Shown in pieces: positions 6,211-25,689 of a stretch of DNA of 59,948 bases. Under the pieces are notes generated by a model that had not been told where the DNA came from, did no database searches, and saw only the letters and a program-made list of their open reading frames with translations. Both the position numbers and the translations under genes were made by a program. The DNA comes from Pedosphaera parvula Ellin514 (GTDB lineage Bacteria; Verrucomicrobiota; Verrucomicrobiia; Limisphaerales; Pedosphaeraceae), in the NCBI RefSeq assembly GCF_000172555.1, contig NZ_ABOX02000047.1:1-59948 (forward strand). Reading direction: 5' to 3'. How positions within the stretch are numbered: position 1 is the first letter of the stretch; every line of letters begins with the position of its first letter.

Positions 6211-6831
6211 ATGGGTGCAAGAGTTTTTCCCATAAGAATTGCCTTTGGCGTACTCTGGCTGCTCGCAGTCGGAGCCGGCTTCGTCGTGATGTTGAATTAC
6301 CAGAACGCCAGCGGCCGCGTCGGCACCACGCCAAATCATTGGCCGGCGGGGACCCGGCTGACACTGGACCGCACCCACAATACTTTGATTATGTTCGCTC
6401 ATCCCCAATGCCCATGCACCAGGGCGAGCCTCGAAGAACTGAACCGCCTCCTGGCCCGGTCCCGGGGCAGCGTCTCCGCGCAGGTGGTCTTCTTCAAGCC
6501 CGGCAAATTTACCGATGACTGGACACGAGCTGGTTTGTGGCGGAGCGCGGCGGCCATTCCCGGCGTGACGGTGCATGAGGATCTCGACGGCGCGCAAGCG
6601 CATCTGTTTGGGGCTGAAACGTCCGGTTATGTCCTCCTTTATGACACCCATGGGCAATTGCTGTTCCGTGGAGGGATCACCGGCGCCCGTGGCCATGCCG
6701 GCGATAACGCCGGTGAAAATGCCGTGGTTTCGTTATCGGCCGGACAAAATGTAACTTTGAAGCAAACACCAGTCTACGGATGCTCGTTGCTGGGTGGATG
6801 TGAAACTTTACCTCAAGGAACTGCCAGGTGA
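6211..6831 (+). CDS. RedB-like thioredoxin-fold membrane-anchored protein
   Basis: A 206-residue protein with an N-terminal membrane anchor (about residues 8-29, AFGVLWLLAVGAGFVVML) and a thioredoxin-like domain outside the membrane. The redox site is the unusual AHPQCPCTRAS, a CxC pair instead of CxxC. A second cysteine pair near the end (VYGCSLLGGC) may form its own disulfide. This pattern fits RedB-type proteins, known from planctomycetes and relatives, whose substrate is unsettled. The gene ends in GTGA, overlapping the GTG start of the sensor kinase, so the two are translationally coupled. I infer that it reports or edits the redox state for that kinase. Confidence 0.75.
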   Translation: MGARVFPIRIAFGVLWLLAVGAGFVVMLNYQNASGRVGTTPNHWPAGTRLTLDRTHNTLIMFAHPQCPCTRASLEELNRLLARSRGSVSAQVVFFKPGKFTDDWTRAGLWRSAAAIPGVTVHEDLDGAQAHLFGAETSGYVLLYDTHGQLLFRGGITGARGHAGDNAGENAVVSLSAGQNVTLKQTPVYGCSLLGGCETLPQGTAR

Positions 6832-8837
6832 ATCCGCCAATGTCCAACATAACCTCGCTCGCCGACACACTCCCCGCGCGCATTGCCGAGCTGTTCAAAG
6901 AACAACAGCAAAGCATCGTCAAGCACACGGACCTCATCTTTGCCCGATTGATGATGTGCCAATGGATTTTCGGCGTGGCACTGGCCCTTTGGATTTCGCC
7001 CCGCACCTGGACGGGCACCGTCAGTCAGACACATTTGCATGTATGGGCCGCCGTGCTTTTGGGCGGAGCGATCACCAGCGTGCCGGTCCTGCTTGGCCTG
7101 ACACAACCGGGAAAAACCATGACCCGCCATGCCATCGGCGTCGGGCAAATGTTAATGTCAGCCTTGTTGATTCATTTGACAGGCGGACGGATCGAAACCC
7201 ACTTTCACGTGTTCGGCTCACTCGCCATTCTTGCATTCTACCGCGATTGGAAGGTATTGATCTCAGCCTCGGCAGTTGTCTATCTGGATCACGTTCTGCG
7301 AGGAATCTTCTGGCCCCAATCCGTCTACGGCGTGCTCTCGGCTCCGATATGGCGCTCGCTGGAACACGCAGGTTGGGTGGTATTTGAAGTGACATTTTTG
7401 ATCATTTCCATCCGCAAGAGTTTAAGCGAAATGCTCCTCGTCGCGGAGCGGCAGGCCAGATTGGAGTCTCTGAAGGAAGGCATTGAGCAGACTGTGGCTG
7501 AGCGCACTGCGGATCTGACGCGTGAAAATACCGAGCGCCGCCAGGCCGAGGATCAACTCCGGAGAAGCCAGGCCCAACTGGCGCAGGCACAGCAGATCGC
7601 ACACATGGGAAGCTGGGAATGGGACCTTGTGGAAAACAAAGTGACCTTCTCCGAGGAAACACAACGATTATACGGACGGAAACCGGAGGAATCCGGTTCT
7701 TCCATGGAAAGCTGTATGAAACAGGTGCATCCCGATGACCTGCCCCGGGTCAACAAGATCATGGCGGAAGCGTTGCGGAACCGCCAATCGTTTGTTTGTG
7801 ATCACCGGGTGGTTCTGCCCGGCGGCACGGAACGGATCATGCAAGGACGTGGAGAACTCCTCCTGAACAGTCAGGGCGAACCCATCCGGATGTTCGGCAT
7901 CGTGCAGGACATCACAGAAGCAAAACGCGCGGCGGAAGCGCTTCACCGCAGCGAGGAACAACTGCGTCAATCACAAAAAATGGAAGCCGTCGGCCGGTTG
8001 GCTGGTGGGGTGGCGCACGATTTTAATAATTTGCTCACGGTGATCGGCGGCTACTGCGCACTGTCTCTGCGACAAATAGACGAAGCGCATCCCCTGCAAA
8101 AAAGCATCGCTGAAATTCAAAAAGCCTCCGAACGCGCCGCTTCCCTGACCAGCCAGTTATTGGCCTTTAGTCGAAAGCAGGTGCTCCAGCCGCGCGTCCT
8201 GCAACTCAATGAAGTGGTTCGCGGCATGGAAAAAATGTTGCGGCGTCTGATTGGCGAGGACATTGAACTCTCCACCGCCTTTGATTTATTGTTGGGACAC
8301 GTGAAAGCCGATCCCGGCCAGATCGAGCAGGTCATCATGAATCTCGCTGTCAATGCGCGTGATGCCATGCCTCGCGGCGGCAAGCTCACCATCAGCACCG
8401 CAAATATCACCATCGATCAAAAGACCCACTTTCGGAATCGCACCTTGGATGTCGGCGACTATGTCCAGATCGCCCTCAGTGACAACGGCGTAGGCATGAC
8501 CGAGGAAGTCAAGTCGCACCTGTTTGAACCGTTCTTTACCACCAAAGGGTTGGGCAAAGGCACGGGTCTCGGTCTGGCGACCTGCTACGGCATCATTTGC
8601 CAGAGCAATGGCGACATCCGCGTGTACAGCGAGCCGAATTCCGGCACCACGTTCAAGATTTATCTGCCGCGCACCGACGCGAAATTGGAGCCCACGGCAA
8701 ACCCGGAATCAGGGCGTCTGCCGAGCGGGTACGGAATCCATACTCGTGGTGGAGGACGATGCGGCAGTGCGCAAACTCGCGGTCATCATACTGCGCGAGC
8801 GCGGTTACCAGGTGCAGGAATCCAACAACGCCTTTGA
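6828..8837 (+). CDS. Membrane PAS sensor histidine kinase (kinase part of a frame-split hybrid kinase)
   Basis: Residues about 35-205 hold roughly six membrane segments including [22 protein letters not shown], a conserved sensor-membrane signature of PVC and myxobacterial kinases. A coiled coil (about 205-250), a PAS domain (about 255-365, [12 protein letters not shown]), a HisKA motif [11 protein letters not shown] with the phospho-acceptor His near 397, and HATPase boxes (N box [12 protein letters not shown]1 DNGVGM, G2 GKGTGLGLA) follow. After TTFKIYLPR the frame drifts into an unrelated tail. The receiver domain continues in the next frame from about 8728, so one extra G in GGG (8727-8729) probably splits a hybrid kinase. 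The start is GTG 6828, coupled to the thioredoxin gene, or ATG 6840. Confidence 0.85.
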
Positions 8838-9147
8838 AGCCCTCGAGTTGATCAGAAGGAATTTGCGCTTCGACCTGGTGATCACCGACGTCATCATGCC
8901 CCAAATGAGCGGCAAAGACCTCCACGATCAAATCAAAAATCAACTTCCTCAAACCAGGGTACTGCTTATGTCAGGTTACACCGATGACGCGCTTGCCCAC
9001 CACGGTGTCCTGGATGAGGGAATATGCTTCCTGGAAAAACCATTTTCACCATCGCGACTCGCGCGAAAAGTCCGCGAGGTTCTTGACGCTCCAGTGCAGC
9101 ACCCATTCCACCCAAATGGTGACAAGCCTGAACCATTGAACGTTTGA
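8728..9147 (+). CDS. Response-regulator receiver domain (C-terminal part of the split hybrid kinase)
   Basis: This frame reads [19 protein letters not shown], then DLVITDVIMPQMSG (phospho-acceptor Asp), LLMSGYTDD and FLEKPFSPSRL (conserved Lys). It is a complete receiver domain of about 120 residues with the acidic pair, Asp and Lys in place. No start codon or ribosome binding site is sensible at its front. Removing one G from 8727-8729 joins it smoothly to the kinase as ...[12 protein letters not shown] therefore treat it as the C-terminus of the upstream kinase rather than a separate gene; a longer frame from 8524 is a shadow of the HATPase region. It would shuttle phosphate within the hybrid protein. 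Confidence 0.8.
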   Translation, partial: GTESILVVEDDAAVRKLAVIILRERGYQVQESNNAFEALELIRRNLRFDLVITDVIMPQMSGKDLHDQIKNQLPQTRVLLMSGYTDDALAHHGVLDEGICFLEKPFSPSRLARKVREVLDAPVQHPFHPNGDKPEPLNV

Positions 9148-10215: not shown

Positions 10216-10626
10216 ATGATCAAACGCGAACCGTCCAAACTCGAAATGCAGGTCCTCTCTGTCCTCTGGCAGTGCGGCCCCTCCACCGTGCGCGATGTCC
10301 TCGATGCCATGTCCGATGGCAAGACCCGCGCTTACACCACCATTCTCACCGTCATGCAGGTGATGGAGAAAAAAGGTCTCGTCTCCCATACCGCCCAGGG
10401 CAACACCCACATCTACGCCGCCGCCATCTCCCGCGAACAGGTTGCCGGTCCGCTCCTGAAGGAACTCGTGCGGCATCTCTTCGGCGGCAGCCGCGTCTCC
10501 GCCCTGCAACATCTCCTGCAGGAAAACGAAGTCAGCCCGGGCGAAATGGACGAAATCAAGCAACTCATCGCCACCCACGAAAAAGAGCAGTCCTCCAACC
10601 AGCCCAAAAGGAAGAAGCGTTCATGA
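10216..10626 (+). CDS. blaI: BlaI/MecI family transcriptional repressor
   Basis: About 136 residues from ATG 10216 (MIKREPSKLEMQVLSVLW), normal for BlaI/MecI. The winged helix spans about residues 8-75 (STVRDVLDAM, then RAYTTILTVMQVMEKKGLV, the recognition helix and wing region, and GNTHIYAA). The C-terminal part (about 75-125) is the dimerisation helix region, with a basic tail KRKKRS. AGGTG sits six bases before the ATG; an upstream in-frame ATG at 10141 would run through both operators and is rejected. The stop overlaps the ATG of the BlaR1-like gene (ATGA), the usual coupled pair. In known systems BlaR1 leads to cleavage of the repressor; the inducer here need not be a beta-lactam. Confidence 0.88.
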   Translation: MIKREPSKLEMQVLSVLWQCGPSTVRDVLDAMSDGKTRAYTTILTVMQVMEKKGLVSHTAQGNTHIYAAAISREQVAGPLLKELVRHLFGGSRVSALQHLLQENEVSPGEMDEIKQLIATHEKEQSSNQPKRKKRS

Positions 10627-11225
10627 ATTCACTGCTGCAGATTCTTGCCTCACCCGCCTGGATTTATCTGGTCAAGGCACTCCTGCACACTTTATGGATC
10701 GGCGCACTATTAGCTCTACCGTTGGCACTATTGTTGCGCCGCAGTTCCAATCCTTTTCTGCGCTACCGGCTCTGCCTGATCGCACTGCTCGGAATTTTAT
10801 TTGGTGGCCTTATTTCCTGGTCCGTGCTCAATCCAAAGACTTCCACGGTCATGACCTCCGCCGCCCTCACTCCCGCACTCAAATCTCAAACTCAACCCGC
10901 CGCCCCCAGTCTGATCCCCGCGCCTGCAGCAACCGCCTCCGCTCCCTCACTGTCGGCCACCAGCCCATATCACCCACCCATCAACTGGATTCCCTGGCTC
11001 GCCCTGCTCTGGCTCACCGGCGCCTCATTCATGCTCCTTCGCGCCGCGGTCCAGGTCGCCTGCGCTGAATCCTTCCGCCGCCGCACTCAACCACTGGCTG
11101 ATCCTGCGATCCTTGCGCTGGTCGAACAGGCTCGCAAGCAACTCAACATCCTTCGCCGCATTGGCATCGTTGCCTCGGAACAACTCACTTCCCCGGCAGT
11201 TAGGGCATCCTCGTGCCCACTTTGA
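10623..11225 (+). CDS. BlaR1-like M56 protein, N-terminal membrane part (frame-broken)
   Basis: Starts at ATG 10623 inside the blaI stop. It carries at least three hydrophobic segments: residues about 8-38 (IYLVKALLHTLWIGALLALPLALLL), about 45-65 (YRLCLIALLGILFGGLISW) and about 120-140 (WIPWLALLWLTGASFMLL), as expected for the membrane part of an M56/BlaR1 antirepressor. Between them is a long Pro/Ala/Ser linker. It ends ...LTSPAVRASSCPL because of a one-base loss near 11200; in the -1 frame GILVPTLIFPLSLL continues, which is the next typical BlaR1 stretch. The true product is therefore this plus the following entry. Confidence 0.75.
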   Translation: MNSLLQILASPAWIYLVKALLHTLWIGALLALPLALLLRRSSNPFLRYRLCLIALLGILFGGLISWSVLNPKTSTVMTSAALTPALKSQTQPAAPSLIPAPAATASAPSLSATSPYHPPINWIPWLALLWLTGASFMLLRAAVQVACAESFRRRTQPLADPAILALVEQARKQLNILRRIGIVASEQLTSPAVRASSCPL

Positions 11226-14020
11226 TTTTCCCTCTCTCGCTTCTGACGACGCTCCCACAAACCAACTCCAGCTCATCATCCTCACGAACTGGCCACGTTC
11301 GCCGCGACGATTATCTCGCCAATCTCTGCCAGTTGCTCATCGAAGCCATTCTTTTTTTCAATCCCGCCGTCTGGTGGATCAGCCGTCAAATGCGAATCGA
11401 ACGAGAAGCGTGCTGCGACGCCCTGGCCATCAATCTCGTGCCCGACCGCGCCGCCTATGCCCATGCCTTGGCTCACGTCGCGGAACAGCGCCTCCTTACG
11501 CCTAAAACGGCTCTGGCCTTTGCCGCTGACCAAAACCCTTCGAGCCTCAAGGACCGCATTCAACGCCTCCTCATTCCCGGCTACCGTCCTTCAATGCGTT
11601 TAACTTGGACTGCGCTATTTGGTTCCCTCCTACTCGGCAGCGCCCTGTTGATTCTTTCCGCCCTTGGCACTCAATGGACCGTTCACGCCGCTGCCAAATT
11701 GCTTTCTCCCCAGGAACGCATCGCGCGCATCGAAAAAAGCATGCAGGACCTCGGCCAGACGTTCCAGGATTCCATCCGTGACGAGTTAAAAATTCCATTT
11801 CAGGCCACTGTTAAAACCGCCGATGGATCACCTCTCCCCGCTGAACGCTCCGCGAATTTTACACTTATTAACCGGTCACAGAAGTCCAGTTCCATTATTT
11901 ATATTGCCCCGAATGGCCTCTGCACCAATTCCCTCCCACGCGGCACTCTCTTCTTCTCCGCCTGCGCTGAAGGGTATGCACCCGGGCGTATAGGACCGAT
12001 CAACACCCGCTCCAGCAATCGCGTGGAAGGATTGGAACTGGTCCTCGACCGAGGTTTTCCAATAACGATCCATCTGACCGATGCCGACTCTCGCAACCCG
12101 ATCCCTGACGCCGACATCGCCGCCGCTTTCTATCTCCCTTCCAGAGCCGACGGGAATATCAGCAATCCCATTCACATCAAAACAGACTCTCGAGGCAACG
12201 CCGTGCTCGAACATTGCGGCACGCTGCTTCTGGTGGCTCGTGTGCAAAAGGAAGGTTATGAAACAGTCGAAAAAGAAGTCGACACCTTGACCCCCAATCA
12301 GGTTTTGGAAATCTCCACGCGCCCCGCACTCGCGATTGCGGGCACCGTCCTTGAAAAATCCACGAGCAAACCTCTCGCTGGTGCCTCCATTTATGTGCTG
12401 CACAGCGACAATGCTCTTTCCGTCCACAGCGTCACCCCCTGGGAACCGAGTTCCCCGTTGGCCACCACGGATGCTGAAGGCAAATTCCAACTCGCTCAAC
12501 TCCCGCGTCAGGGCCGCTACGAACTTCTGATCCAGGCCGACGGTTACCGCCAGGCCGTTATTTCCAAAGTGACCGCCGGCCAAACCAATCTCCAGGTCTC
12601 GCTGACTCCCCCCACGGTGCTGCACGGCAAAGTCACCGGCGATTTGTCCGCTCTTTCCAAATCCCGCAGCAAACCTGACTTGCACTATAGCGTCGTTTAT
12701 ACCATCAATGGCCTGAACCTAGGCTCCTATGGAGATTCCGTCCCCCTCGATATCAAAGACGGCGTCGGTTATTTCGAACTCACCAATTACTCCGCTGGCG
12801 ATTTGGACTTCAGTAGCAGTTTCGGGGGCTACAACGAGAACGCCCGCGCTGAATTTTATCCTCGCGACAGCTCAAACACCGATGTCTCCATCGTTTTGGA
12901 AACCCCTGCCACCCCGCCCAAAACGCGCAAGGTGATCGTTCGATTCCAAAGCCAGCAAAACATTTCCCCCAAGGGCACTGTCTTCTTGGACCTTCCGTTG
13001 CGCACACCGAACAGCTCCGCACGAAAAGAAATCGAAATCCAAAACGGTGAAGTCCAATTTGACAGCCCGGTGGGACATGAGTTCTACCTCCAGCCCGGTC
13101 ACATGGTTGGATATTGGTTCGATCGTTTTTGGAACATTCATGTTGATGACCTCCCCGGTCCGCTTGTCACCAATGTCAACGTTATCCCTGCTGGAGCCAT
13201 GTACGCCCAAACACGCAACCCGGACAACTCGCTTGCCAGCGATGTGATGTTTTCGGTCAAGGAAGTGAAGCCCTCCCCGCTCAGGTCTTCAGGGTTACCT
13301 GCCATTCCTCTACCGGACGGTTTCTCAAGTGGCCCTCGCAAATTCGTGGCCACACCACTTCCTCTGGGAGGCACCTATCAAATCCTGACCTGGCGCAAAA
13401 ATAATTTTGCCGTCAGCGAACACATCCTTCTCACCGAGGAAAACCCGGATTACCACATAGACCTCCAATTGAAAAATGGCGTACCCCTCCCTGGCCAAAT
13501 ATTATCCAATTCTGGCGAACCAGTTGCCGGCGCGTCCGTTGTGACCTACTTTCACTGCGAAGGCTCCGGCTTCGGTGGAGGACCCATCTTCACCGACGAA
13601 AATGGCCGCTTCACTGCTGAAGACTGCAGTCCCACCCAGGGCGAATATTCCCTCGAGGTACACAGCCCCGGATTTATGGCAGAACAAGTGAAGGTCGATT
13701 TCAACAAACTCCCAATCATTATCACGCTTCAGCCTGGCCTGAAACTCTCCGGCCGCGTCATCGAGATCGGCTCAAAACGTCCTCTCATCCATGCCCGGGT
13801 CCACGCCTTTGCTAAGGAGGCAAAATACCCTCAGCTAACCACCCTCACCGACGAGCAAGGCAACTTCACCTTCGACGAAATGAGTTCCGTCTCTTACAAC
13901 ATTTGGGTTGAGGGCGGCAGCTCTTATAATTGGGTTGAGGGCGGCAGCTCTCGGTCCGGCTTCCCCTTCCTCAAACCCGGCCAGGCTGCACCCGCAACCA
14001 TCGAGGTTAATGTTCGGTAA
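11213..14020 (+). CDS. BlaR1-like M56 protein, C-terminal part with carboxypeptidase-regulatory-like domains
   Basis: This 935-residue continuation begins with the end of the M56 domain: HVRRDDYLANL, FFNPAVWWISRQMRIEREACCDALA, typical of BlaR1. The zinc motif HELAH should directly precede HVRRDDY; instead the frame reads NSSSSSSRTG. Three single-C losses (near 11260, 11282 and 11293) explain this and restore the frame. A membrane segment follows (about 125-150). Instead of a penicillin-binding sensor, about 700 residues form repeated beta-sandwich units of the carboxypeptidase-regulatory/CnaB sort (SKPLAGASIYVL...TTDAEGKFQLAQLP; SGEPVAGASVVTYF...TDENGRFTAEDC; RPLIHARVHAF...TDEQGNFTFDEM). A 27-bp tandem duplication lies near the end. 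The substrate sensed is unknown. Confidence 0.75.
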   Translation: MPTLIFPLSLLTTLPQTNSSSSSSRTGHVRRDDYLANLCQLLIEAILFFNPAVWWISRQMRIEREACCDALAINLVPDRAAYAHALAHVAEQRLLTPKTALAFAADQNPSSLKDRIQRLLIPGYRPSMRLTWTALFGSLLLGSALLILSALGTQWTVHAAAKLLSPQERIARIEKSMQDLGQTFQDSIRDELKIPFQATVKTADGSPLPAERSANFTLINRSQKSSSIIYIAPNGLCTNSLPRGTLFFSACAEGYAPGRIGPINTRSSNRVEGLELVLDRGFPITIHLTDADSRNPIPDADIAAAFYLPSRADGNISNPIHIKTDSRGNAVLEHCGTLLLVARVQKEGYETVEKEVDTLTPNQVLEISTRPALAIAGTVLEKSTSKPLAGASIYVLHSDNALSVHSVTPWEPSSPLATTDAEGKFQLAQLPRQGRYELLIQADGYRQAVISKVTAGQTNLQVSLTPPTVLHGKVTGDLSALSKSRSKPDLHYSVVYTINGLNLGSYGDSVPLDIKDGVGYFELTNYSAGDLDFSSSFGGYNENARAEFYPRDSSNTDVSIVLETPATPPKTRKVIVRFQSQQNISPKGTVFLDLPLRTPNSSARKEIEIQNGEVQFDSPVGHEFYLQPGHMVGYWFDRFWNIHVDDLPGPLVTNVNVIPAGAMYAQTRNPDNSLASDVMFSVKEVKPSPLRSSGLPAIPLPDGFSSGPRKFVATPLPLGGTYQILTWRKNNFAVSEHILLTEENPDYHIDLQLKNGVPLPGQILSNSGEPVAGASVVTYFHCEGSGFGGGPIFTDENGRFTAEDCSPTQGEYSLEVHSPGFMAEQVKVDFNKLPIIITLQPGLKLSGRVIEIGSKRPLIHARVHAFAKEAKYPQLTTLTDEQGNFTFDEMSSVSYNIWVEGGSSYNWVEGGSSRSGFPFLKPGQAAPATIEVNVR

Positions 14021-18252: not shown

Positions 18253-19134
18253 ATGCACCTCAATATTGCCGTCGTCCAATTTGAAATTGAGCAGTTCGCT
18301 CCTGAAAAGAACCTGGCGAAAGCGGAACGCTTCATCCAGGAGGCCTGCACACAGGGCGCTCAGGTCATCGTCTTCCCCGAAGACTTTCTTACAGGTCCGT
18401 TGCCGGGCCGCATCGACTTGGCCGACTTCGATCAACGTTACGTCAAACGCTTTCAAGAACTGGCCGTAAAATTTGGCATCGATATCGTCCCCGGCTCCAT
18501 CATCGAGGTGGATGATAATGGTCTCTATAACACAACTTATTACATCGATCGTTCAGGCAAAATCCTGGGCCAATACCGGAAGATCAACCTCTGGCTCACC
18601 GAGCGTCGCTACTTGCAACCGGGACGTCAGGCGATTGTTTGCTCCACCCGTTTCGGCAAAATTGGCCTCGCCATCTGCTGGGATCTGGCCTTTCCCGAAT
18701 TATTCCGCGCCATGATCATGCAAGGTGCGCAGATTGTATTTTGTCCCAGCTACTGGTCCTACGAGGATGCCGGCGTCGGCCAGCGGCACAATCCTGATTC
18801 CGAAGCCCTGTTCGTCGATGCGCTCTGCACTACGCGCGCCTTTGAGCAAAATATTATTCTGGCATTCGCGAACACTGCCGCATCCCTCGGCGCCAGCGCA
18901 GTTCAAACCACGCCCCTTGGCCATTCCCAAATTACCGTCCCATTCAAAGGCCCGCTGCAACGCTGCGATCACAACCGCGAAATGCTTTTTGTTCAAACCG
19001 TGGATACCGCCATCCTCACCGACGCCGAAACCGCCTACGAAATCCGTTGCGATCTGAAAAAGGGACTTCCGCTCACACCAGCTTCGATGGAAACCTTTTC
19101 GCCCTCAATCACTCACCCACAATCTCCAGCCTGA
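18253..19134 (+). CDS. Carbon-nitrogen hydrolase (nitrilase superfamily)
   Basis: A 293-residue cytoplasmic enzyme with the nitrilase-fold triad: Glu43 in VIVFPEDF, Lys110 in YRKINLW and Cys142 in LAICWDLAFPE. A fourth motif (FCPSYWSYED) follows. Such enzymes hydrolyse amides or nitriles through a thioester on the Cys; the substrate cannot be read from the sequence. The sequence around Lys (RKINLWLTERRYLQPG) is typical of the amidase branches. Its start is about 30 bp from the ABC operon promoter on the other strand. It converges with the next gene, the two stops being one base apart. Confidence 0.88.
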   Translation: MHLNIAVVQFEIEQFAPEKNLAKAERFIQEACTQGAQVIVFPEDFLTGPLPGRIDLADFDQRYVKRFQELAVKFGIDIVPGSIIEVDDNGLYNTTYYIDRSGKILGQYRKINLWLTERRYLQPGRQAIVCSTRFGKIGLAICWDLAFPELFRAMIMQGAQIVFCPSYWSYEDAGVGQRHNPDSEALFVDALCTTRAFEQNIILAFANTAASLGASAVQTTPLGHSQITVPFKGPLQRCDHNREMLFVQTVDTAILTDAETAYEIRCDLKKGLPLTPASMETFSPSITHPQSPA

Positions 19135-19135
19135 T

Positions 19136-21331
19136 TTACAATCCAAGCTTCTCTCGATAAGGCCAAACCCAATCGTCGGCTTCCAAATCCACTGCACCGT
19201 CCTTCTTCGACCCGGCAACACCGCCATCATCCTTCTCATTCCAACCAATAGAGTAGAGCTTGAATTGGCCTTTCTCCGCTCGATATTTCAATGGCTGTCC
19301 GCCAACGATATCATGGGGCAACTTTTCCATGAATTTCGGCACGAGCGATTCCAGGTTTTCTGGGTATTGCCCATGAACAAAATGGTAACGTTCCAACGCA
19401 CATACGACCAGCGCCTCATTTACGAGCGTTTGATTTCGGGCGAGCACTTGAATGCCTATTTTAAAATTTGGGATTACCTGGGCCGCCAAAATTGTTTCCG
19501 GCCAACGCTTGCCCATGGAACTTTCAATTTTTCTGAATGAGCTTTCAGCCGCTCGGGGCAGCACGAGGTGATTGGTTAAATCCAGCCCATCCAGCATCGA
19601 TAGGTTCATCCTCCCCATGTTGACCATGTTCTGATATACCCAACCACGCGGCGCGAAACTCAGAAACACGAACATGGGATCTTTGAGTTTGTCCCTAAAG
19701 GTGGTAGAGCTGCTGGGGAAAGGCCTGTACACCTTGTCATACTGTTCGGGTGAGGTGTGTTCCAAAGTATAACAAGAAGCCACCCGCGCAGTCTCGAATC
19801 CAGCCGCCAAATAGGGCAGCAAATCGATTTCCCCAAGCTGTTGCTGCAAGACGGCCAGTTGCGGTTCTTGCCACGCCTGCAAACGCAACCCGTCCGCAAC
19901 CACCCCCACGTAGATTCCCCGCACGGCCACATTGATCATCGCCGCCGCCAGTGTCATCGCCTTGTTCATGGGCCGGCCTTCCAGCATACGACAGAGATCA
20001 TTCATCATCGTCAGTTCCTCCAACGCCTTCTCTGGTTGTCCCAATAACAAGTAACACTGCGCCCTTTGTGCCAGTGTTTGCGGCACCACTCTTACCGCAA
20101 CAAAATTTGGAATCGGCATGGCATTTGGAATCTCATAAGAGCCCACCATTTGAGCGTAAGGCCGCTTCAATCCTTCCCTCATCGTTGCAAATTCAGGCTC
20201 AAACTGATCGCTCCACGCCAGATAGTCGGCCGCGCCCACGTGCGTCGGAGGATTCAACGATACCCTGAACACGTTGCTCCCGATCAATTTCGCCTGCGGT
20301 CTGCTAAGAAATCTTGAACCGTACATGCGCTGGTTGCCGGGAAAGAATCCTGCGATTTCATCACTCCTTGGGACCTCCTCCGCCTTCACCACGATCCGCA
20401 CCGGCTTGGGACCCTGCACTGCCCGTGAATAAATCGTGTATCCTTGAGGTGCCACCAAACTCGGACCGGATGGAGCGTTGGTATCAGCCTCAACCCAATC
20501 CTGGAAAACTTTTTTTAACCTTTCACGGACCTCCGGCTCGGCAGAAGGGGCCAAATCCTTTTTCGTGATGCGTGCCACGCCCGTTTTGGAGTCCTCAACC
20601 AATCGAAGATTGTAATTTTTCAGCAACTCCTGCAACGCCTGATGCCCGGTGACGTTCGTCCATCTTAAGGAAACGGGCGCATCGAGGAACAAGCTCCCAT
20701 CAGCATTCCGTTCGTAAACTACTTTGGAGTCCAGCAGGTATTTTACTCCGGCTGCATGTGCAATATTTGTGATCGCGTCCGATAATCGAACCTCGTTCAT
20801 GACAATGAGTGGAATAATGGAATTCGACGATCCAGCCACACTTGCCACGTTGGTCTCCGCCATCGCCAGCACTGGCGGATTATAACTCAACACCAAGTCA
20901 GCCTCTCCAGCAGCAACCACGGCATTCGGCGGCACAATGGTGATTTCGGCCATCGCATTGCTCCCTCCACCCTGATATAAGCCGGAGAGACCTGCTGTCA
21001 TGCCCATCGGCACGCCAATGGTTCCACCACTTTTCACAAACCAGGGACTCATGTTTGGCGCGCCAAAAACGTTTTCGTCCACCGGAACCGGCGAAGGAAT
21101 AAAAGTGGCCCAATCGAGTGCCTTGCCCTGCGCTCTCATTTCACTTTTATAATTGTCCCAAGCTTGCTTTCCCCGCCAATCTTCTTCGCAATAAAAAAGG
21201 GCGACCAACACAATTAATCCAGCCAGCACGGCCATACCCCACTGCGCCAGCGACCAATGCCACATCCACCGCATCAGCCGTCTTATTCGAGACGGTTCAT
21301 TCGTCTGCACTGGAGATTCAGATTTGCTCAT
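19136..21331 (-). CDS. Large membrane-anchored protein of unknown function, paralog A
   Basis: A 731-residue protein. Residues about 1-30 are cytoplasmic and basic; about 32-50 (WGMAVLAGLIVLVALFYC) form one membrane anchor; the remainder should be outside the membrane. Around 170-270 a short domain (PLIVMNEVRLSDAITNIAHA... then VSLRWTNVTGHQALQELL) looks like the small STN/secretin N-domain fold. The middle and C-terminal parts are mostly helical (LAQRAQCYLLLGQPEKALEEL), TPR-like in places, ending with IVGGQPLKYRAEKGQFKLYSIGWNEKDDGG, a tail I associate with verrucomicrobial surface proteins. It is a tandem duplicate of the next gene upstream, with which it shares its 5' leader. The function is unknown. 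Confidence 0.75.
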   Translation of the reverse strand: MSKSESPVQTNEPSRIRRLMRWMWHWSLAQWGMAVLAGLIVLVALFYCEEDWRGKQAWDNYKSEMRAQGKALDWATFIPSPVPVDENVFGAPNMSPWFVKSGGTIGVPMGMTAGLSGLYQGGGSNAMAEITIVPPNAVVAAGEADLVLSYNPPVLAMAETNVASVAGSSNSIIPLIVMNEVRLSDAITNIAHAAGVKYLLDSKVVYERNADGSLFLDAPVSLRWTNVTGHQALQELLKNYNLRLVEDSKTGVARITKKDLAPSAEPEVRERLKKVFQDWVEADTNAPSGPSLVAPQGYTIYSRAVQGPKPVRIVVKAEEVPRSDEIAGFFPGNQRMYGSRFLSRPQAKLIGSNVFRVSLNPPTHVGAADYLAWSDQFEPEFATMREGLKRPYAQMVGSYEIPNAMPIPNFVAVRVVPQTLAQRAQCYLLLGQPEKALEELTMMNDLCRMLEGRPMNKAMTLAAAMINVAVRGIYVGVVADGLRLQAWQEPQLAVLQQQLGEIDLLPYLAAGFETARVASCYTLEHTSPEQYDKVYRPFPSSSTTFRDKLKDPMFVFLSFAPRGWVYQNMVNMGRMNLSMLDGLDLTNHLVLPRAAESSFRKIESSMGKRWPETILAAQVIPNFKIGIQVLARNQTLVNEALVVCALERYHFVHGQYPENLESLVPKFMEKLPHDIVGGQPLKYRAEKGQFKLYSIGWNEKDDGGVAGSKKDGAVDLEADDWVWPYREKLGL

Positions 21332-21420
21332 AATTGGGACACCGCCTGGGTCAAAAACTCACTCTGCCTGCGTTTCTACAGCTTACTCCAGGATCAGGAG
21401 CAGCAACTATGCCCTTACAT
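21329..21420 (-). repeat. Conserved 92-bp leader, copy A
   Basis: The 92 bp from the start codon of paralog A upstream match copy B (23703-23794) at about 84 of 92 positions with no gaps, by eye. The stretch GGAGTAAGCTGTAGAAACGC (minus strand) is identical in both. It probably carries a shared promoter or RNA leader. Confidence 0.8.
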
Positions 21421-21503
21421 TTTCGACTCTTGAGGTTGGAATGCCTCAAGACTAAGCCCCCGTGAACCAGAAATAAAATCTGTCCGTTCTGACTTGGAAG
21501 CGT

Positions 21504-23705
21504 CTAATAAGCCAATTTCCCACGGTAAGCCCAGACCCAATCCCCATTTTCCAAATCCGTATTGCCTTCTTTGTTCAACGCAACAGCACCCCCATCATCC
21601 TTTTCATTCCAACCAATGGAATAGAGCGCGAACCGGCCTTTCTCCATGCGATACTTGAGCGGCGCTCCACCGACAATATCATGCGGAATCACCTGAAGAA
21701 ATTGCGGCACCAGCGCCTCCAGTGTCTCTGGATAACATCCATGCAGGAGATAGTAACGCTCCAACGCGCAAACAATCTGCGCTTCGTTCACCAGCGTTTG
21801 ATTTCGAGCAGCCACGTGAAAGGCTCTGCCATAGCTCGGAACTATCTGAGCCGCCATCAATGTTTGAGGTGATGGCCGGCTCCTGGCCAGCTCCCATTCA
21901 TTGAATAAGGCATCTGTCTGTCCCGCCAGAACCAGACGGTTTGTCAGATCTATTTTTTCGATGGCTTTGCCGTCCATTTTCCCAATGTTGATCATGTTCT
22001 GATATCTCCAGCCACGCGGTATAAAGGTTAGAAATAAAAAGACAGGATCCTTGAACCTATCCTGCCAGCTAGTGGCGCTTGCGGGTGAAGGAAATTTATA
22101 CATCCTGTCAAATTCTTCAGGTGTGAGGTTTTCCAGCGTCTGACAATCAACCACCCGCCAGGTCTCAAGCCCTCCCTTCAGGCAGGACAACAAATCAACG
22201 TCATTAAGTTGTTCTTGAAGCACGACTAGTTGCGGCTCACGCCACGATTGCAGCCGCAATCCGTCGGCGACGACGCTCACGTAAATTCCCCTCACGGCCA
22301 CATTGATCATCGCCGCCACCAGTGTCACCGCCGTGTTCTTTGGCCGGCCTTCCAACATGCGGCAAAGATCGTGCATCATCGTCAGTTCATGCAATGCCTT
22401 GTCTGGCTCCCCCTGCAACAAATAGCACTGCGCCCGTTGCGACAAGGTGTGGGCCAACACTCGCACCGTCACAAAGTTCAGCATCGGCATCGCATTCGGG
22501 TCTTCATAGGAACCAGACATCCTGGCATAAGGCCGCTTGAACCCTTCTCGAATGATCTCGAACTCAGGCTCAAACTGATCGCTCCATGCCAGGTAATCAG
22601 CCGCGGTCACATGATTCCCCGGACTCATCCATACCTTGAATGTGTTACTCCCCGTCGACTTCACCCGCGGATTGCTCTGGAAGTTCGCGCCTGAAGCACG
22701 CAGATTACCTGGAAAGAACGCCACTATCTCGTCGGTGGGGGGAACTTTTTCGGCTTTAATAATAATGCGCACTGGCTTGCCATGTCTCACCGGGTTCTTA
22801 TGCAACGTGAACATGAGGGCTGCGGTCAAACTCGGCCCGGTAGCAGCATTGGTATCTGTTTCAATTGCCGCCAAGGCGATTTTCTTCAACCGTTCACGCA
22901 CATCCAGCCCCACGGCAGGTTTCATGTCTTTGCTGAAGATTCGAGCTCTAAGCGTTTTGGGGTCTTCGACCAATTGAAGATTGTAATTCGCCAAAACAGC
23001 CTCCAGCGCCACGCTCCCGGTGAGGTTCGTCCATCTCAATGAAACTTTCGAGTCCAACAGCCAACTCCCATCTGCGTTGCGTTCAGCCTCCGCTTTGGGA
23101 TCAAGCGTGTAGTTTATTTTCGCCTCTTTGGCGAGATTCTTTATCGCATCAGATAATGGAACCTCATCCATGACGATCAATGGAATGATTTGGTTCGTGG
23201 TCTGCGCCACATTCGGAGCATTCGTTCCAGACAAGGCAAAAGCCAAAAGCGGTGGGTGATAGGCCAGCACCAAATCCGCCTCCCCGCTCGCAATTTCCGA
23301 ATCGGGTGCCAAGACCGTTATCTCCGCCATCGTGTTGCCATACTCATCCTGGTTGAAATTGGACATTCCGCTCAGACTCAACGGCATGCTCGCGCTCCCA
23401 TTCCTCTTGACGAACCACTCGCTCATGTTCGGGGCCGCGAAAACATTTTCATCCACTGGCACTGGTGGTGGAACATGAGCCGCCCAATCGAGCACCTTCC
23501 CCTGCACTGCCATCTCACGCTTGTACCGTTCCCACGCCCATTTTCCCCGCCCATTTTCCTCACAGTAAAGAAGAGCCACCAACGCGATGAAACCGACCAA
23601 AAGCACCACGCCCCATTGCAAGGTCGACCGCGTGCCCATCCAGCGAAGCAACCGCTTCATCCGTGATGGCCCATCCGACTTCATTGGAGTTTCAGTTTTG
23701 TTCAT
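21504..23705 (-). CDS. Large membrane-anchored protein of unknown function, paralog B
   Basis: A 733-residue tandem paralog of the preceding entry, colinear over its whole length and roughly half identical by eye. It has the same layout: a basic cytoplasmic start, one anchor (about 34-52, GVVLLVGFIALVALLYC), an STN-like segment (LSDAIKNLAKEAKINYTLDP, VSLRWTNLTGSVALEAVL), a helical middle (LSQRAQCYLLQGEPDKALHEL) and the ending YSIGWNEKDDGG. There are no catalytic motifs I can name. A short inverted repeat, CTTGAGG/CCTCAAG at 21429-21450, lies about 55 bp past its stop without a T-run, so at best it is a weak terminator. The two copies may assemble together. Confidence 0.75.
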   Translation of the reverse strand: MNKTETPMKSDGPSRMKRLLRWMGTRSTLQWGVVLLVGFIALVALLYCEENGRGKWAWERYKREMAVQGKVLDWAAHVPPPVPVDENVFAAPNMSEWFVKRNGSASMPLSLSGMSNFNQDEYGNTMAEITVLAPDSEIASGEADLVLAYHPPLLAFALSGTNAPNVAQTTNQIIPLIVMDEVPLSDAIKNLAKEAKINYTLDPKAEAERNADGSWLLDSKVSLRWTNLTGSVALEAVLANYNLQLVEDPKTLRARIFSKDMKPAVGLDVRERLKKIALAAIETDTNAATGPSLTAALMFTLHKNPVRHGKPVRIIIKAEKVPPTDEIVAFFPGNLRASGANFQSNPRVKSTGSNTFKVWMSPGNHVTAADYLAWSDQFEPEFEIIREGFKRPYARMSGSYEDPNAMPMLNFVTVRVLAHTLSQRAQCYLLQGEPDKALHELTMMHDLCRMLEGRPKNTAVTLVAAMINVAVRGIYVSVVADGLRLQSWREPQLVVLQEQLNDVDLLSCLKGGLETWRVVDCQTLENLTPEEFDRMYKFPSPASATSWQDRFKDPVFLFLTFIPRGWRYQNMINIGKMDGKAIEKIDLTNRLVLAGQTDALFNEWELARSRPSPQTLMAAQIVPSYGRAFHVAARNQTLVNEAQIVCALERYYLLHGCYPETLEALVPQFLQVIPHDIVGGAPLKYRMEKGRFALYSIGWNEKDDGGAVALNKEGNTDLENGDWVWAYRGKLAY

Positions 23706-23794
23706 AATTGGGACACCACCCGAGTAAAAAGCGCACTCTGCCTGCGTTTCTACAGCTTACTCCAGGATCGAGAGCAGCAACTATGCCCTTACAT
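23703..23794 (-). repeat. Conserved 92-bp leader, copy B
   Basis: Copy B of the gap-free 92-bp repeat ends at the start codon of paralog B. Six of about eight mismatches lie in the 30 bp next to the gene; the distal 60 bp differ at only two positions, so selection or gene conversion acts on the distal part. Confidence 0.8.
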
Positions 23795-23931: not shown

Positions 23932-25689
23932 ATGAGTTCCGATTTTCCGCATCCCAGTTCTCAACTCAGCCACAAAGGAATTTTTTTTCCAAACTGGAGA
24001 AGTCTTTCCACTCACGTTTTCGCTCTTCTTTTTCTCGGCCAGGTGACCGGCCATGCTGACCCCAACGCTGCTCCAGCGAAGGATAAGGAGGAATATCGCC
24101 GCTTTGCCCTCGATCATCACGGGAATCCCCAACTCGGCAGGAAACTTTTTGCAGATACTCGGGTCGCTTGCACCAAATGTCACACCATTGATGGATCGAG
24201 CAGCAATGTCGGGCCGGACCTGGCTTCGGTGGGCAACAAATTCTCCCGCACTGAATTGATGCAAGCCGTGCTGGAACCGTCCTCCACCATCGCCGTGGGA
24301 TACACGACCACCATCGTCGAAACCAAATCCGGCGAAGAATTTCAAGGGGTCGTCAGGGAAGACGGAAGTGCCTGGATGGATCTCATGGGACCGGAGAAAA
24401 AAGTTTCGCGCATCGACAAGCGGGACATCCAGGGCCAACGCACCAGCAACGTCTCTCTCATGCCTGAAGGCCTGCAATCTTCAATGTCATTGGAGGAATT
24501 TACCGATTTAATCGACTATCTTTCCTCATTGAAACTGGTTTCCCAAGATATGGCTGCCAGCGGAGCCCCAAGTTCCATTCCTGCCATCAAACAACCCATC
24601 GGCATCATCCCTTTTCAATCGGAACAGCACAAGTTTGATCACCCCTGCTGGTTCGGACAAGTTCCGGGACTGAAAAATGGATTCTTAATCCTTGAGCACA
24701 AAAAAGGTCGCATCTGGCTGCTTGAGAAGAATGGCACCACCGAAACCAAAACTCTCTTCGCCGATCTGCATGAGGAAATCCGCCCGGGCGAAGCCACGGG
24801 CTTGCTCGGCCTCGCCTTTCATCCGGGTTTCCGCCACAACCGTAAATACTATCTCCAACACCAAATCCAGGAAAACGGCCGCATCTCATCCGTCGTCATC
24901 GAGCGACAGGCCGATGCCAGTTTTAAAAAGGATTCCGGTCAGGCGTCTCGCCGTCTCATAAAAATTCCCTGCTCAACCGATGTCCATTCCGGCGGCGGCA
25001 TTGAATTCGGTCCTGATGGTTTCCTCTATATCGGCATGGGCGATACCGGTCCGCAAGGCGACCCGCAAGGTCATGCCCAGGACCTCGGTCAACTCCTCGG
25101 AAAAATGTTGCGCCTCGATGTGGATCATTGCACCGGCGACAAGCTCTACGCCATTCCACGCGATAATCCGTTTCTTAAGCAGGAAGGCGCACAGCCGGAA
25201 ATTTGGGCCTATGGCTTCCGTGAACCGTGGCGGTTCACCTTCGATTCCAAGACTGGCGATTTGTGGCTTGGCGACGTGGGCCAGGATCGCGTGGAGGAAG
25301 TAGACCTCGTCCATTGCGGCGGAAATTACGGCTGGAATGTTTACGAAGGCACTCAGAAATTCTCCACCCACTATGGCAAGGAGGGAGCCAGCTACCAGCA
25401 ACCGGTATTTTGTTACCAACGCAACTATGGCGCCTCCGTCACGGGCGGCTATGTGTATCGCGGGAACAGGCGTTCCTCATTTTACGGTGTTTACATTTTT
25501 GGCGACTTCAACTCCCACCGCATTTGGGGATTGACCCAGGAAAAAGGCGAGCTGAAGGAAATCCGCCAGCTTGGCATGTCACCTCAAGGCATTGCCTCCT
25601 TCGGTCGCGATGCCAAAGGAGAGCTCTTTATCGTCGGCTACGAGGGAAACATCTACAAACTGGATCTGGAGCAAGGCGATTTTCGTTAA
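23932..25689 (+). CDS. Secreted PQQ-type sugar dehydrogenase with N-terminal c-type heme module
   Basis: A 585-residue exported protein. A hydrophobic export segment (about 28-42, THVFALLFLGQVTGHA) is followed by a c-type heme module with CTKCH (Cys80, Cys83, His84) and the PVC-type heme-binding pattern (GPDLASVG, TVVE-like strand GYTTTIVETKSGEEFQGVV, LMPEGL near 185, a distal Met region). From about 215 a six-bladed propeller of the glucose/sorbosone dehydrogenase family follows (GLLGLAFHPGF, SGGGIEFGPDGFLYIGMGD, WAYGFREPWRF, GGNYGWNVYEG). It probably oxidises a sugar or alcohol in the periplasm and passes electrons to its own heme. The same heme module sits at the other end of the next gene's product. 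Confidence 0.85.
   Translation: MSSDFPHPSSQLSHKGIFFPNWRSLSTHVFALLFLGQVTGHADPNAAPAKDKEEYRRFALDHHGNPQLGRKLFADTRVACTKCHTIDGSSSNVGPDLASVGNKFSRTELMQAVLEPSSTIAVGYTTTIVETKSGEEFQGVVREDGSAWMDLMGPEKKVSRIDKRDIQGQRTSNVSLMPEGLQSSMSLEEFTDLIDYLSSLKLVSQDMAASGAPSSIPAIKQPIGIIPFQSEQHKFDHPCWFGQVPGLKNGFLILEHKKGRIWLLEKNGTTETKTLFADLHEEIRPGEATGLLGLAFHPGFRHNRKYYLQHQIQENGRISSVVIERQADASFKKDSGQASRRLIKIPCSTDVHSGGGIEFGPDGFLYIGMGDTGPQGDPQGHAQDLGQLLGKMLRLDVDHCTGDKLYAIPRDNPFLKQEGAQPEIWAYGFREPWRFTFDSKTGDLWLGDVGQDRVEEVDLVHCGGNYGWNVYEGTQKFSTHYGKEGASYQQPVFCYQRNYGASVTGGYVYRGNRRSSFYGVYIFGDFNSHRIWGLTQEKGELKEIRQLGMSPQGIASFGRDAKGELFIVGYEGNIYKLDLEQGDFR

Follow-up and report, generated by a model that had tools for sequence, protein, structure and literature searches.

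Two diverged tandem paralogs of Pedosphaera parvula share a near-identical 89-nt leader that may be a duplicated promoter

Genes A and B form a tandem pair on the minus strand of contig C47 of Pedosphaera parvula Ellin514, the whole of which (59,948 nt) was analysed and is called the window below. The genome searched is a draft of 7.41 Mb in 102 contigs that is 95.9% complete. B lies transcriptionally upstream of A at a spacing of 172 nt (Table 1); the neighbour on the 3' side of the pair is a convergent carbon-nitrogen hydrolase gene (18253-19134, plus strand) and the one on the other side a divergent GSDH-type gene (23932-25689, plus strand). Elsewhere in the window the frame of a PAS histidine kinase overlaps that of a response regulator (6828-9147), and after this kinase/regulator pair come frames encoding BlaR1-type peptidase domains (10272-14020). 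Among the titles returned by a literature search none was on genes A and B.

Table 1. Features of the A/B locus, in coordinates of the window
Feature	Position	Strand	Remarks
Gene A	19136..21331	-	731 aa; N-terminal helix, STN/secretin-N0-like domain, helical region
Gene B	21504..23705	-	733 aa; tandem paralog of A
STN-like domain of A	20537..20881	-	residues 151-265
Leader A	21332..21420	-	89 nt directly 5' of the ATG of A
Leader B	23706..23794	-	89 nt directly 5' of the ATG of B
Most conserved part of leader A	21361..21419	-	-30 to -88
Most conserved part of leader B	23735..23793	-	-30 to -88
Candidate Shine-Dalgarno stretch of A, AGGCGG	21342..21347	-	from the duplex with the anti-SD letters
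Candidate Shine-Dalgarno stretch of B, GGGTGG	23716..23721	-	
Perfect 8-bp hairpin TCTTGAGG/CCTCAAGA	21428..21451	-	between the stop of B and leader A
Candidate -24/-12 (sigma-54-like) site GGGCATAGTTGCTGCT, leader A	21399..21414	-	at -83
Candidate -24/-12 (sigma-54-like) site GGGCATAGTTGCTGCT, leader B	23773..23788	-	

The two proteins share 433 of 733 residues (59%) and thus differ at 41% of them, so that the divergence described in an earlier sequence-only reading of this DNA was confirmed, its estimate of about half of the residues being somewhat too high. About 0.68 changes per site separate A from B in the protein tree, and the coding sequences have a nucleotide identity of 66%. At fourfold sites 88 of 195 positions match (45%), with 29% being expected at full saturation.

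Modelling of A with AlphaFold2 from a 17-sequence alignment (mean pLDDT 72.7, pTM 0.61) resulted in one long N-terminal helix, which probably serves as membrane anchor, a small alpha/beta domain at about residues 171-257, as well as helices and a small number of strands at the C-terminus. A Pfam search of A gave no family at E ≤ 0.001, the STN match being absent and a TPR match being weak (0.027). Residues 151-265 are 43-50% identical to G031, L023 and G004 (G, L and C numbers are our handles for genomes, loci and contigs), and as this STN-like domain is common to these three it predates the A/B duplication. The same stretch is 50% identical over 106 columns to a PilQ-like secretin encoded on contig C4 of the same genome, which has the Pfam matches Secretin and Secretin_N plus a sub-threshold STN match; this suggests an old capture or exchange of the domain between A and the secretin. 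In a Foldseek search with the model of A the N0 domain of PilQ (PDB 4ar0) was the top match (E 0.011, none reaching ≤ 0.001), and sequence and fold similarity together place an STN/secretin N0 domain in A. Unlike in a secretin, a pore domain was not found in A, which would instead be anchored by its N-terminal helix. We infer a membrane-anchored periplasmic role of A near the pilus or type II secretion machinery. One paralog, on contig C25, shows a weak, sub-threshold GspG match close to its C-terminus, with none in A.

The leaders of A and B align without gaps and are identical at 81 of 89 positions up to the last matching base. Genes and leaders lie where the sequence-only reading had placed them; its ungapped near identity holds, and its count of about 84 of 92 positions is to be corrected to 81/92. 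Conservation is strongest farthest from the gene, as had also been noted there, since 57 of 59 positions match from -88 to -30 and 23 of 29 in the proximal 29 nt (Fisher p = 0.014). 5' of -89 the identity of A and B falls to 1-3 of 10 per block, giving the common stretch an abrupt edge. The hairpin between the stop of B and leader A is possibly a terminator, although without a T run.

If the leader evolved as an average gene site, chance would yield 57/59 matches with a probability of ~1e-8, and 79/88 or more with one of ~2e-7. With genes that are only 66% identical, 88/195 matching fourfold sites and ~0.68 changes per site, the leader is more conserved than the average gene site. A patch inside the genes, at alignment codons ~440-480, is nearly as alike, its best stretches reaching 77/88 and 54/59, so that the distal 59 nt of the leader surpass the best gene patch by a small margin; the earlier claim of a leader more conserved than the genes is thus valid on average and, by that margin, for these 59 nt. 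Synonymous identity in the patch (19898-20020 in A, 22269-22391 in B; up to 77/88 nucleotide identity) is marginally unusual, with p ranging from 0.03 to 0.2 by window size, and it is possible that this is a second conversion patch.

We searched for the leader outside the pair at three levels. A search of the own genome (7.41 Mb) with the leader DNA at E ≤ 0.001 returned no full-length copy beyond these two, and with the distal 63 nt at E ≤ 10 only short words appeared besides A and B. The best third match of the own genome (C25:31350, E 0.12) falls within a frame of 483 aa whose product resembles a radical-SAM protein. In eight genomes of the family the leader retrieved only A and B at full length at E ≤ 1, with short weak matches in four other genomes, and a sequence-only profile of the leader at the same threshold gave no third full-length copy and short weak matches in two genomes. 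The search of 320 genomes of the order, including the own one (E ≤ 0.05, two first-look candidates scored per genome), revealed no full-length copy in the 319 others, eight genomes having short words. The nine other matches of this search comprise 18-32 leader letters with E values of 0.006-0.05, five of them being located on leader letters 14-33; exact words of at least 18 letters occurred five times, with about three expected by chance. Thus, further copies of the distal 60 bp, for which the sequence-only reading had proposed to look, were found at full length neither in the own genome nor in the family or the order, indicating that the leader is specific to the A/B pair. To the extent of these searches this is the first of the two outcomes that the sequence-only reading had named as speaking against its interpretation. 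This bears on the idea that a dispersed or mobile repeat landed by chance in front of both genes: the sharp upstream edge at -89 would agree with such an element, but a third full-length copy is missing from the draft and from the order, and distance and orientation to the ATG are equal for both genes. We find this idea hardly credible.

Comparison with the relatives of A and B gave a similar picture. The upstream regions of L023, L024 and L025, 19 upstream regions of relatives (G004 counted twice) and a set of 21 tails and upstream regions overlapping these 19 all lack similarity to the leader clearly beyond chance, and an inheritance of the leader from relatives was rejected on this basis. 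The best match of a relative, in G007/L024 (GCAGGCAGATTG), was equalled by 28 of 300 shuffles and, in another comparison, by 11 of 200. Leader conservation was likewise seen in none of the three measurable single-locus pairs of the protein family. The leaders match at 28/89 positions in the L036 pair (66% amino acid identity), where a short local match scored above all 100 shuffles, at 28/89 in the L165 pair (45%) and at 18/89 in the L078 pair (39%), which is not adjacent. L105, L108, L166 and L167 were left out of this count, having fewer than two usable genes after filtering for ATG start, length, motif and upstream length.

The leader might also be the remnant of another gene, either the tail of the small gene located in front of relatives or a short ORF on the antisense strand. 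The small-gene tails of relatives often end PRSER-like and one leader frame reads KRRQSEF; moreover, a plus-strand frame runs across each leader (43 codons for A, 59 for B), and both frames contain TLPAFLQLTPGS. Yet the best score of the leader against the 21 upstream and tail regions is the one reached by 28 of 300 shuffles, stops interrupt most minus-strand leader frames, and most substitutions in the plus-strand frame, as read by hand, alter the amino acid, all of which makes a gene remnant very improbable.

The protein family itself is widespread, with a relative at E ≤ 1e-30 in 66 of 146 sampled genomes of the order. We fetched 15 loci around the closest matches and read their neighbourhoods, finding by our own reading an ECF-like sigma frame upstream in ten (L076-L081, L084, L085, L088 and L089); in L082 the last part of a frame of this kind was recognised by eye, L075 and L086 have none, L083 is ambiguous and L087 is cut short. 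Two sigma proteins were compared with family models and both match sigma-70 regions 2 and 4. As to the small proteins, three were compared in the same way: zf-HC2 and anti-sigma models match that of G007/L024, G007 being a genome of the same genus as the own one; the protein from C82 has a sub-threshold zf-HC2 match and no family gene after it in the stretch read, and the one from C25 gave no family-model match. In the own genome both paralogs on C25 have sigma and small-gene neighbours, whereas A and B have not: a sigma gene with a small anti-sigma-like gene was not found directly upstream of the pair, and none of the 14 own-genome matches of a relative's sigma protein is located on the A/B contig. 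A and B form a clade in the tree (100/100) that L023 and G004 join at 93/88 (not starred), 10 of the 24 inner branches being unresolved. Neither L023, which is located on a 5.9 kb contig, nor G004 has a sigma-like frame next to the gene.

Many relatives are preceded by an ECF-like sigma gene, so that A and B appear to be members that departed from this operon. They resemble the ECF sigma/anti-sigma operons of verrucomicrobial relatives in that the same protein family is encoded downstream of the sigma and small genes there, and differ from them in lacking such neighbours and in having leaders without the TTGAACCTTT motif. An exact TTGAACCTTT is absent from the window, the sole 17-mer site of the own genome being on C25. 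ECF-like sigma genes of this family (L146-L164) have a strongly conserved promoter-like motif, TTGAACCTTTTCTCGCC-N4-GCATTCCACT, at a distance of exactly 39 nt from their ATG on the 5' side. It occurs at 19 sites in 18 of 320 genomes, with one match for the reversed control; 17 of the 19 have an ATG at +39 that opens a sigma-like frame by our own reading, or 14 if an ORF of >120 aa is required. The own-genome site is on contig C25 near 3405, in L105/L157. The motif has the appearance of a self-regulated ECF promoter whose leader is very short. Of the two exceptions, L156 (G004:C27:127188-127204) lies upstream of a frame with the prepilin-type motif GFTLIELLVVIGILAL, where a pseudopilin gene may be under the control of this ECF promoter as well.

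For A and B, we tentatively favour the reading that the leader is a duplicated promoter plus 5' UTR, carried along in the tandem duplication and providing each gene with its own start signal. It is supported by two near-identical leaders, their fixed distance to the ATGs and the sharp upstream edge. The ancestor of A and B would have been duplicated in tandem together with the 89-nt leader, the edge at -89 probably marking the breakpoint of the duplicated unit, and each gene would obtain its start signal from its own copy. The promoter would be located in the distal part (-88 to -30) and may belong to the -24/-12 sigma-54 type, with transcription starting near -57; the 29 nt next to the gene would be an ordinary UTR with a Shine-Dalgarno stretch. 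A and B would thus have left the ECF-sigma operon and would run from their own promoter, with the near identity of the leaders, as compared to 59% for the proteins, being due to a promoter kept under purifying selection, to conversion of the leader, or to a combination of the two.

The sequence-only reading had proposed a special promoter, for instance one for an alternative sigma factor, and the near-invariant part of both leaders indeed carries a -24/-12-like site, GGGCATAGTTGCTGCT, at -83. The full consensus of sigma-54 promoters is YTGGCACG-N4-TTGCW. By hand count GGGCATAGTTGCTGCT meets 8 of its 13 letters and misses 5, with GG at -24 and GC at -12, 10 nt between them, and GGCA and TGCT cores in both leaders. 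Using a hand-written sigma-54 matrix, the site scores 11.06 bits, a value reached at 16 of 119,866 window positions, both leaders included, in 31 of 2000 random 93-nt stretches (1.6%, before counting the other promoter types searched) and in 3.9% of random 300-nt stretches. RpoN is encoded in the genome (PF04552 match with 201 bits, contig C12), and the canonical sigma-54 pattern occurs 19 times in it versus 10 times for the reversed control, a mild enrichment. On the other side of the comparison, five consensus letters are missed and an enhancer site or activator was not found: 5' of -89 the leaders share no word beyond chance, the longest having 7 nt with 96 of 200 shuffles containing one as long. 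Among 15 upstream regions of relatives and paralogs none reaches 11.06, G004 being nearest with 10.86. A sigma-70 promoter was tried and rejected, as the best hexamer pairs in the leaders agree at 7 and 8 of 12 positions and the scan tool listed none. The special promoter thus has the site in the near-invariant part and the encoded RpoN in its favour, and the 8/13 letters and the 31/2000 random stretches against it; the sigma-54 reading of GGGCATAGTTGCTGCT is suggestive, no more. A fuller scenario of sigma switching, in which the A/B clade left the ECF operon and, once duplicated, both copies came under a compact sigma-54-type element, with almost all bases between -88 and -30 being constrained by overlapping regulator sites, seems decidedly unlikely to us.

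A promoter alone would be expected to constrain 57 of 59 consecutive bases only rarely, and this uniformity fits gene conversion better. Tandem and other duplicated bacterial genes can undergo concerted evolution by gene conversion, and the A/B pair resembles such cases in that adjacent paralogs have a block far more alike than the rest. Applied to this locus, for which the sequence-only reading had also considered conversion, a short tract around the leaders would have been transferred between the two genes well after they had arisen by duplication, the sequence itself having no special function. A and B are tandem genes located close together, and near identity is uniform over 59 nt and then drops to 23/29, to 24/30 in the first ten codons, to 42/60 in the first twenty and to 66% in the genes, a stepwise fall as expected of nested tracts centred on the leader. 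The gene-internal patch, with its raised identity and marginal excess of identical synonymous codons, points in the same direction. What sets the pair apart from known cases is that its block is short and non-coding, with unevenly distributed substitutions and no third lineage. The uneven substitutions (2/59 versus 6/29, p = 0.014) speak against conversion and, together with the conserved spacing, fit selection; in addition, the start of the tract would have to coincide with the start of homology, and the first 90 codons show no rise in synonymous identity (9 matches at 24 fourfold sites). No ortholog carrying the leader was found in the 319 other genomes of the order, and selection, conversion or both may keep the two copies alike. 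We consider conversion of a functionless tract a serious possibility, if a less probable one than the duplicated promoter.

The sequence-only reading had also named a regulatory RNA. The leader would then be a structured 5' UTR, i.e. an attenuator, a protein-binding element or an sRNA target, and its distal GGGCAT would pair with GTGTCC close to the start codon. None of the eight substitutions conflicts with the alifold consensus: three retain a pair by a one-sided change and the remaining ones are located in loops. Pair probabilities in the long helix, which brings the two best-conserved ends of the leader together, are 0.73-0.98 for A and 0.34-0.45 for B; those of an inner hairpin are 0.97-1.00 and 0.43-0.79, respectively. 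However, the folding energies of the single sequences are no better than those of shuffles (z -0.30 and +0.32), the same holds for the distal part (z +0.29 and +0.57), and under each of three null designs most of the 1000 alignments (677, 780 and 616) had an energy at least as good as the consensus energy of -18. The minimum-energy folds of A and B differ, the best fold of B lacking the long helix, and two copies with eight differences offer no compensatory pair. Rfam covariance models did not match the leader even at E ≤ 5. The structure check proposed earlier thus yielded plausible helices that fit every substitution, but energies that do not exceed the nulls; an RNA structure in the leader is weakly supported at best, and unsupported rather than disproved. 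As the fold joins the conserved leader ends with moderate pair probability it leaves some room for a regulatory RNA beside the promoter, although we regard such an RNA as unlikely.

In summary, the observation made from the sequence alone is confirmed and its interpretation is supported in part; the duplicated promoter is the best of several readings, with gene conversion being a close rival and the RNA reading being weakly supported. The leader is a real and fairly ordinary feature, seen in a single genome, and does not represent a novel type of element. If conversion made the leaders alike, the locus would be a clean case of homogenisation confined to the leaders of old tandem paralogs. If sigma switching occurred, the genes would have retained their protein under a different sigma factor. 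A promoter function of the leader would make it a ready reporter for a widespread verrucomicrobial family of uncharacterised membrane proteins and would suggest that members of this family can leave ECF control.
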